52,986 bases of DNA, taken from a virus. Shown here one piece after another: positions 12,581-25,411 of this stretch. A program made the position numbers and the translations under genes. The DNA lies in the IMG/VR virus record IMGVR_UViG_3300025112_000017, positions 1 through 52,986 of that record; one strand, written 5' to 3'. How positions within the stretch are numbered: the first letter of the stretch is position 1; each line of letters opens with the position of its first letter. The notes under the pieces were generated by a model that made no database searches, was not told where the DNA came from, and was given only the letters and a program-made list of their open reading frames with translations.

Positions 12581-15500
12581 CTATTTGAGGGGGTCAACCC
12601 CCACGGGGGATTCCGACTCTTTGAGTAATTTCTTAGCCTTATACTGTTCGTTCATAAAGTCTCTAAGGCGAGCACGCATGATTGCGTTCTCCCACTTTGC
12701 GTTCCTTTGAGTAACCCGCAGCCCCGACAACGCTTCAACTGCGCGGAGATATGAGGGGATATCGGTGCTGCCGGGGTCTATCGCCGTACCATAGCCGTGG
12801 GCTGGGGAGAAGGCTCCCGATGAGTCCACGCTTCCCAAGGAGGCAGCATGGCTAAGAGAGGCAATGTCTGTGTAGGATACAGCCTGTTTGATTAGTCGCC
12901 CCCAAGGGAGACTACCAACAGCCCAGTTGGCCGTACCGCTGACGACTGGTATGTCGTCGTAGGCTGTACCTTCCTCGTTTACACGCCAAGCCATAGACAG
13001 TCCCATCATTTGGTTTATGTAATCAGCAGCAAGCTCTCCGGGTCCTCCAAATCTATCCGCAATTCCGCGAGTCATGTCGGCAATCATGCGACCGTTTGTC
13101 AACTCTGATATTGGCTTATCGTAGAAAAAGTGTCGCCCCGACCCCAATTCTGCAAGGACTCGTATGGGTATATTACCCTGACCCACCACCCTGAGTAGCG
13201 GCTGTCTTCCAGAATGGTTCCAGTAACGAGTCTTGTAATCCGCCCCGTTGAGGTGGCCAATGACTCCATGCCTAAGGAATCTTGCGGAATCAAAGAACGG
13301 GTTGAGCCATTCGTTGAACCCCTCTTGGGGCAGCCCAAACCCTTCCATAAAGACGTTGCTCATTCCAGGAACAGGAAGAGAAATCCTGTGGTAAGAGTGT
13401 GGCTCACGCTTAGCCAGCATAGATTGTCTGTTTGGATTCACTGGGCGCAAGCCGGTCTCTTCATCCTCAAGGGCAGCGTTCGCGATATTCGGTAAGCCCT
13501 CGTACATCAAGTGATTGAAGCTGCTGTAGAAGGAGGGGACCTTACCGATAGATTCCAACTGCAACCAAACATTCTTGTTGCTCCAAACAAAGAATGGAAA
13601 GATGGTTCGCATGTACTGCTTCTGAACTGAAGTCAGGTCACCGTAATTGAATAGGTGTTTCTCTACCCGCTTGGCCGAATCAGCAAGGCTTGCTCCTTGT
13701 GAAAGAGCGCCCCTGAAGTTCAGCACCCTGGCCTGGTTCTCGATAGTGCGACCAAGGCTTGCCCCCAAACCTTTGGGGAGAGTAACAGGGAGGCCACCAG
13801 TGATAGCCATTGGTAGCATCACAACAAGGGCATCTTCTGTAACACTGAGGCCCTGCTTGGCTTTAGTCCAGGTACCGCCCAGCCCATTCCGGGCCATCAT
13901 ATCTAATAGGTTTGCCTCAACGTCTGCAATGTCAACGTACTGAGTAAACGATTCGGACAGCACACCGTGCCTTTTCAGAATGTCGTAGGAGTCATCCAGG
14001 GAACGGATAACCCCATCACCCAAATCAACGCCGTCATCTATCATTCTACCGTACTGGGTTTCGAACAACTTAGAGCGGGTCTGTCTACTATTGTAGGCTA
14101 GGGTTGTTTCCCCGTGTAGTCGTGGCGCAGCAAGAGCCTTCCTCGCCTTCACCATGCTCCCAAATTCTTCGTAATGACTAACGCCAACAGCCAGTACTCC
14201 AGAGATCATGTTCGACTTGGGGTCAAGTACAGTCGGAACATCCAGGTTCAGAAAGCTTTGAACCACGTTCGACACTGCGTTCCTTGCGTGAAAGGCAATA
14301 GCCAACACGGTCAGTCTTACTTTGTAGAAGTTTTGGATATTATCAAGAGCCCCTTTGAATGCCCCTGATTCACCCAACTGTCCCGCAAGAATGTTCTCCA
14401 TAGAAGCAACTACAGACTCAGGAATATAAAGCTTCCAGCCCTCTTGCCCACCAGCAAAGTACATACGCAGGTCTTTACCTTTGAACCGTATGTCCTGATT
14501 AGCATACTTCATCACCCTGTCCCGCAGGCTTGCGGCGATAGAATCAAGTGCTGCGTTCTGTGCCGCCTCGTCAGTAAGCTCAAGCGCTGAGCGAACAAGG
14601 TCTCTTACGTTGGTTAGCTTGTCGGCACCCGACTTCATTTCATAGTATCGAATGGCACCGATTGTATCTTCAATACGGGATATCGCCTTGATCTCTCCAA
14701 CCTCTGTGGCCCATGTCGCAAACCTATTGGACTTATAGAAGGAGCCCTTCCTTCTCAGGGCTGACTCCTTACCAACCTTAATGCTTACAAGGTCAAACCC
14801 AAGTAGCGCCTCAAGCTTGCTGGGTTCCGTCAAGTCAAGCTCAGCCCACTGCTTGCGGGTACCAAACAGGATGTGCTCACGACTGATGCTTTCTATCTCG
14901 TCTGACTCACGAGCAAGCAGCGGAATGTACCCTCTCTGCCGGGCAACCTTTGATGCCGGAATAACTGTGCCGTCTTCTCTCAAGATAGGGAGGATGGGTT
15001 GGATGACACCTGTATCAAGAAGAGCAAACAGGAATTCTCGCGCAGTAATCTTTCCGTTTGCCTGCATGTACCTGCGTACAATCTGTAGCGGGTCTACGCC
15101 GAACTCACCCTTGCTCTCTATTTGCATATTGATTTCGCGAATGGTTCCCATGATTCCACGGCGACGTTGCGCATCCATAGAGACCGTCAACCTCTCGTCA
15201 AGGGAGACAGGGCTCCGGCCCATGAACGACTTCATTCGACGATGAGTTTCAATGGCACCGCCTGCCCTCTGGCTTCCCGCCGTAGAGAGAATGGAGCCAC
15301 CGTCTACAAAGGAATGAGGAAAGTAATCTACAACGCCCCACTTCTGAAGCATGATCGTAGGATTAGCCATGAAGTCCATTCCGCTTTCTTCATAAAGCCT
15401 TTCGTACTTTTTAATAAGGTCCCTCAACTCCTCTACCACCGGAGCAATCCGGCTGTTCTCAGCCTGAAGGCGCGGGCCGAGGGCCCAATCCTTGGCTACT

Positions 15501-25411: not shown

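Follow-up and report, generated by a model that had tools for sequence, protein, structure and literature searches.

The virion RNA polymerase (vRNAP) gp50 of phage N4 (Schitoviridae; PDB 9PNR) is composed of an injection part, the polymerase, a zincin domain (C1) and a helical domain C2, and it is packaged whole and ejected after gp52 and gp51 (PMC5512222, PMC4496689, PMC12633501). Its N-terminal part serves injection and its C-terminal part encapsidation (PMC5512222, PMC4496689), and ejection takes place as beads on a string (PMC12633501). According to the authors of the vRNAP structure, C2 is without structural relatives and has an autoinhibitory role (PMC12633501). Polyvalent proteins (Iyer 2017) are injected giants which mix unrelated domains; zincins are the commonest of these, and GNATs, ARTs and LPD38, the last confined to phages, occur too (PMC5512222). 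A further point of comparison is gp16 of phage T7, a protein of 1,318 aa with an annotated endolysin domain.

The locus described here lies in a window of 52,986 nucleotides, the whole of IMG/VR record IMGVR_UViG_3300025112_000017. It contains an ORF of 4,276 codons, stop-free and starting with ATG, at 12581-25411; size and position agreed with the original prediction, to which the strand (minus) can now be added. At the base composition of the contig, the chance of meeting no stop over 4,276 codons is ~10^-82. Codon-position G+C of the gene is even over its four parts and resembles that of the terminase, portal and capsid genes. All motifs quoted earlier were located in the chain, with starts at aa 2428 (RGKGLGKW), 2516 (GELQSD), 2967 (HEMGH), 3707 (FHARNAVSN) and 3939 (PFFVWSNKN). 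The gene comprises 12,831 of the 52,986 bases (24.2%), and the claimed share of 24% of the genome was thus right in size; as the record is an IMG/VR contig classed 'linear', however, the share holds for the contig and not for the genome. The giant and its parts are as follows.

12581-25411, minus strand: giant ORF, 4,276 aa; homologous giants stand in the same place in related phages
22592-25411, minus strand: N-terminal extension, aa 1 to ~940; in this member only, family match none
20120-22480, minus strand: N-module, aa 978-1764 (HMM of 13 relatives, E 5e-52)
15734-20119, minus strand: variable payload slot, ~aa 1765-3226, between the two conserved modules
18395-18472, minus strand: putative upstream half of the GELQSD/EIQSD domain, aa 2314-2339 (HVYNNSHYKNTSGMGLISHVRASVRE), EIQSD HMM positions 53-76
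17888-18394, minus strand: GNAT-like segment, aa 2340-2508 (core match 17999-18256; R-x-x-G-x-G at aa 2428)
17657-17887, minus strand: downstream half of the GELQSD/EIQSD domain, aa 2509-2585 (36% identity to L131)
16232-16618, minus strand: zincin-like metallopeptidase domain (HEMGH at 16499-16513; downstream glutamate pair E3001/E3002)
12611-15733, minus strand: C-module, aa 3227-4267, conserved helical chassis (relatives-only HMM, E 1.6e-251)
13325-14314, minus strand: C-module core, aa 3700-4029, aligned with N4 gp50 C2 residues 3214-3491

Pfam, PHROG and PDB sequence scans with the whole giant returned nothing, and the same was true of tblastn with its N-terminal half against phages or a 501-aa piece against plasmids, and of single-sequence scans of viral contigs with the giant, its C-terminus or the primase. 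The one short match obtained by tblastn with the giant was to the zincin region of a giant encoded by OP947163 (Rhodobacteraceae phage LS06-2018-MD07). For the terminase, Roseobacter phage CRP-7 offered a 25% match, and with an alignment of these two terminases as query some 40 IMG/VR contigs were retrieved, whose terminases are 47-80% identical. Relatives of the giant are encoded in 16 of the 22 whole records searched. Fourteen of them were readable at length (12 intact, two split by contig ends; TerL 47-57% identical), and the intact ones are all shorter than the 4,276-aa giant (2,222-3,730 aa). Within the clade, identity reaches 63% for the capsid protein and 82% for the portal; given how well these are kept compared with the unmatched middle of the giant, the giant gene evolves rapidly, its middle above all. 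A derivation of the giant by fusion of CRP-7 gp33-35 was considered as well and rejected, as neither BLAST nor profile similarity was found.

The giant gene closes the late operon. Upstream on the same strand lie the terminase, portal, capsid and other virion genes and the genes for a 193-aa and a 655-aa protein, and the primase gene, part of an oppositely oriented replication block, ends ~250 bases from the giant gene.

39890-41512, minus strand: terminase large subunit, used to find relatives (phrog_2, E 2e-19)
38136-39908, minus strand: portal-like protein (phrog_156 portal, E 2e-7; phrog_332 head-tail adaptor, E 4e-5)
27383-27964, minus strand: 193-aa late protein in the position of T7 gp14 / N4 gp52, by size and order
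25419-27386, minus strand: 655-aa late protein in the position of T7 gp15 / N4 gp51, by size and order

All 14 relatives carry their giant at the same end of the late operon, in agreement with its description as the last large late gene. Nearly all of them also encode proteins of ~190-250 aa and ~650-810 aa directly upstream, usually in that order. This small-medium-giant trio is like T7 gp14-15-16 and N4 gp52-51-50 in order and size, the giant being, as T7 gp16 is, the third and largest member. The earlier statement that the giant follows ejection-type genes was therefore upheld by position and size but not by sequence, as searches with the 193-aa and 655-aa proteins gave no significant homologue. 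Profile tests of the other late genes against T7 gp8, gp10, gp11 and gp12 all gave probabilities of 5% or less.

HMMs of the conserved modules were built from the relatives alone, with the 4,276-aa giant left out; the reversed giant, used as control, matched none of them significantly. In the relatives the N-module begins at about residue 1, while in the giant the alignment starts at aa 978. The extension that precedes it had no significant match in Pfam and PHROG scans, and aa 1-1000 were aligned by no relative. The N-module is predicted to be an injection-side chassis. Its scores against the N4 NTD, T7 gp16 and L131 were at control level, as were the hhalign probabilities of T7 gp16 with both the N-module and the C-module. 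The C-terminal module, for which FHARNAVSN and PFFVWSNKN had been quoted, was present in 14 of 14 relatives. Neither conserved module of the clade matches a Pfam model.

The slot between the modules measures ~280-1,620 aa across the clade where its boundaries are clear; in a few relatives, where HMM envelopes ran into each other or were spread out, the length is poorly measured. Its sequence differs from that of the giant in all relatives, none of which covers aa 1901-3050 at BLASTP E 1e-3. A Pfam scan of the relatives' slots yielded no convincing enzyme. Since Pfam names little in them, differing enzyme-like content is established for the few readable slots only. Judged by these sequence comparisons, the two flanking modules are the conserved parts of the protein, and the GNAT-like, GELQSD and zincin domains are its predicted payload. 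This shifts the emphasis of the original prediction: the enzyme-like parts are not what the clade conserves, but lie in a slot that differs in every relative examined. In two giants, L119 (aa 1540-1599) and the L127 fragment (aa 1-59), 60 slot residues are 62% identical, which is consistent with an exchange of payload, possibly a recent one.

The presence of a zincin in the giant is well supported, its catalysis being predicted from motif and family. The HEMGH segment proved to be more than a motif: the domain matches PHROG_9880 (E 1.6e-9; E 3.2e-11 when scored in this genome) and is 34% identical over 109 aa to the OP947163 giant, with HEMGH and E3001/E3002 in register (alignment E 5.6e-15). 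The giant of OP947163 (~3,100 aa) thus has the same zincin type, and its gene order (186 aa, 632 aa, giant) is also alike. It differs in carrying ART-PolyVal, methyltransferase and DUF7178 segments, and the C-module was undetected in the part read. This giant (L003, 17370-26524) is annotated simply as 'methyltransferase', although it also has the zincin, an ART-PolyVal-like segment and DUF7178. An HExxH occurs in the slot of three of the 14 relatives (L114, L117 and L119). The slot of L117 has a match to N4-type vRNAPs in their zincin zone (E 5e-17) and the L114 slot looks similar, while the zincin of L119 is nearer to that of the 4,276-aa giant (E 3e-5).

The GNAT-like segment was borne out in part. 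It has a weak match to PF00583 (E 0.013 among 24,736 families in a full Pfam scan; E 7.8e-5 when scored in this genome alone) and the R-x-x-G-x-G motif, but with 16.2 bits against a curated cut-off of 20.7 it stays below the Pfam threshold and is for this reason named 'GNAT-like'. PDB sequence matches to the stretch were two only, both GNATs (E 0.31 and 1.2), 2GAN among them. A GNAT, predicted to be an acetyltransferase, is probably present. AlphaFold gave a pLDDT of ~30 for the stretch, at an alignment depth of 1 there, and a low-confidence model (pLDDT 48) for the payload of GNAT and EIQSD together. A Pfam-detectable GNAT (PF00583) was absent from 14 of 14 relatives.

The GELQSD segment is part of a domain that occurs in many phage giants and whose signature is EIQSDW followed by PDAPF and TGxxxxxR(Y/W); in these proteins a strand with H-x-R and a short loop precede EIQSD. 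Residues 2509-2534 correspond to EIQSD HMM positions 80-105 (i-E 5e-4), whereas the match of aa 2314-2339 is at noise level (-1.0 bit). The two halves occupy consecutive profile positions, yet stand 170 residues apart with the GNAT-like segment between them. We lean slightly towards the GNAT-like segment being nested inside the EIQSD domain; as the upstream half alone is at noise level, nesting is offered as a suggestion. Other IMG/VR giants have the GNAT upstream of EIQSD and not within it. An open frame of 5,951 codons on a 30.6-kb contig (L197, IMGVR_UViG_3300028844_004948; locus G025:C1:17616-17786) encodes a polyvalent-type protein that exceeds the 4,276-aa giant in length and has a GNAT above the Pfam cut-off and an EIQSD domain.

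The alignment of 15 C-modules (A3; the giant and 14 relatives) has more than 50 invariant columns. Beyond the clade, the C-module HMM matches two giants that have zincin and EIQSD, L161 (6e-28) and L131 (9e-23), as well as the podoviruses ctEqG8 (1e-6) and DS1 (5e-6). In the latter two, the gene matched likewise comes last among the large late genes, and hhalign with the reversed ctEqG8 and DS1 sequences dropped to control level. PHROG_19395 matches the C-module in 15 of 15 clade genomes and in the L131 and L161 contigs, and weakly in DS1; the phrog_19395 label 'tail fiber protein; host specificity' (match at 13505-13693) is probably wrong.

The AlphaFold model of the C-module is largely helical (mean pLDDT 58). 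When it was compared with viral models by Foldseek, matches were obtained to a full-length relative (E 1e-30), to several 'large polyvalent protein' entries and to several N4-like vRNAPs (best E 2.4e-3), and two LPD38-named proteins followed at E 0.04 and 0.18. The LPD38 model PF18857 itself had no match in this or related genomes, and the control was without a match too. Plain Foldseek against the PDB gave nothing significant. The best of 966 PDB chains in VIA-align was N4 gp50, whose residues 3214-3491 were aligned with model residues 511-840 (203 residues, rmsd 8.4); its Z of 6.1 is below the level which the tool calls trustworthy for helical folds. An earlier hhalign comparison had paired the same zone with gp50 at a sub-threshold E of 0.03, and both alignments start from the identical residue pair (model 511 / gp50 3214); they are not fully independent, as both derive from one 15-sequence alignment. 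Against a profile of N4-like C-termini the C-module reached E 0.04, which is not significant (one of 12 column shuffles gave 0.02). The likeness to C2 is one of fold and register, not of significant sequence score. Given the shared source alignment and a profile score no better than shuffles, we regard homology of the modelled C-module core with C2 of the N4 vRNAP as probable but not established.

Taken as a whole, the giant is likely to be an ejected modular protein of the N4 gp50 kind, with the polymerase replaced by another payload. Shared features are the position as last late gene behind two smaller ejection-type genes, a three-part plan and a zincin that precedes the C-terminal domain (HEMGH at aa 2967, C-module from aa 3227). 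In contrast to gp50, the giant has no recognisable RNA polymerase but a GNAT/EIQSD payload, its N-module is unmatched to the N4 NTD, and the two zincins belong to different clades. The domain plan and the podoviral C-module fit delivery into the cell; packaging, ejection, processing and targets we infer by analogy. The N-module may travel with the ejection channel or anchor in it, and the C-module may stow the chain in the capsid and ready it for passage through the tail. The giant would then exit via the tail, its domains loosely linked, and bring its payload to the cytoplasm. In this phage the slot payload would be the zincin and a GNAT-like acetyltransferase, apparently nested in the EIQSD domain, and in sister phages other sequences. 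Possible roles after ejection are, for the zincin, release of the payload or cleavage of a host protein and, for the GNAT, acetylation of host proteins.

The lack of an enzyme match for most of the giant, the lack of any HExxH in most relatives, the shortness of some slots and the largely helical C-module would also suit a purely structural, tape-measure-like ejection protein, in which length and helical parts would count for the channel, the enzyme-like segments being decayed passengers. We consider this unlikely, because the zincin still has HExxH and a downstream glutamate that line up with those of OP947163, the GNAT-like segment retains R-x-x-G-x-G, and a changing slot between stable flanks suits functional payload exchange better than decay; the podovirus-type portal match further argues against a long-tail tape measure. 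Rather less likely still is a polyprotein which the zincin cuts into virion or effector proteins at assembly. Self-processing has been proposed for polyvalent MPTases, and DdrB of phage P1 is processed before packaging, but N4 gp50, although it has a zincin, is packaged uncut (PMC5512222). Moreover, the zincin motif occurs only in the relatives L114, L117 and L119, the first two of which look N4-type, so that processing by this enzyme is not a clade-wide assembly step.

It would be very surprising if the giant hid a highly divergent virion RNA polymerase for N4-style early transcription. An RNAP gene was found nowhere else in the contig, the C-module resembles C2, and chain length and position match gp50. 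However, phrog_2206 has no match here and in one relative matches the zincin zone only, a scan for single-subunit RNAP motifs gave no plausible set, and the slot varies within the clade, whereas a needed polymerase would be conserved. Neither a T7-type nor an N4-type RNAP was detected in this genome by PF00940 or phrog_2206, with CRP-7 as positive control for PF00940; early transcription therefore probably relies on the host enzyme.

The reading as an ejected modular giant places the protein close to the polyvalent proteins. It is likewise a very long chain with at least two biochemically unrelated domains (zincin, probable GNAT and EIQSD domain), and its gene lies among late genes, on the same strand and in the same run as TerL, portal and MCP. 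It differs in that no Pfam model matches the two conserved modules of its clade and that the GNAT may be nested. To call the union of acetyltransferase- and metalloprotease-like parts striking was an overstatement: polyvalent proteins carrying such domains were catalogued in 2017 (PMC5512222), and the combination itself is not new. What appears to be new is that two conserved modules frame a changing slot throughout the clade, an arrangement of which we found no description in the literature, and likewise the link of this frame to N4 C2. If C2 also forms the end of giants without a polymerase, its general function must be a different one, most simply packaging or ejection. The chances seem about even that C2 is a conserved stowage or ejection module of a broad family of giants rather than a polymerase accessory, and that together with the N-module it frames exchanged payloads. 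Constant flanks with changing middles show which parts of an ejection system tolerate foreign folded domains, and this tolerance bears on the mechanism by which proteins pass through a narrow tail.

Some further features of the contig were recorded. Its ends share nine identical bases, TTCGCCCTT (1-9 and 52978-52986), and the genome is possibly circular or permuted; in relative G007, ~120 bases are repeated at the two ends. In the replication block, an Erf-like annealing protein and a Cas4-type exonuclease are encoded close together (5551-6414 and 8581-9573). A 563-aa protein (50401-52092) shows weak similarity to DUF932 (E 0.0017) and phrog_1221. The sole tRNA found on the contig is a tRNA-Asn (gtt) at 47509-47582.
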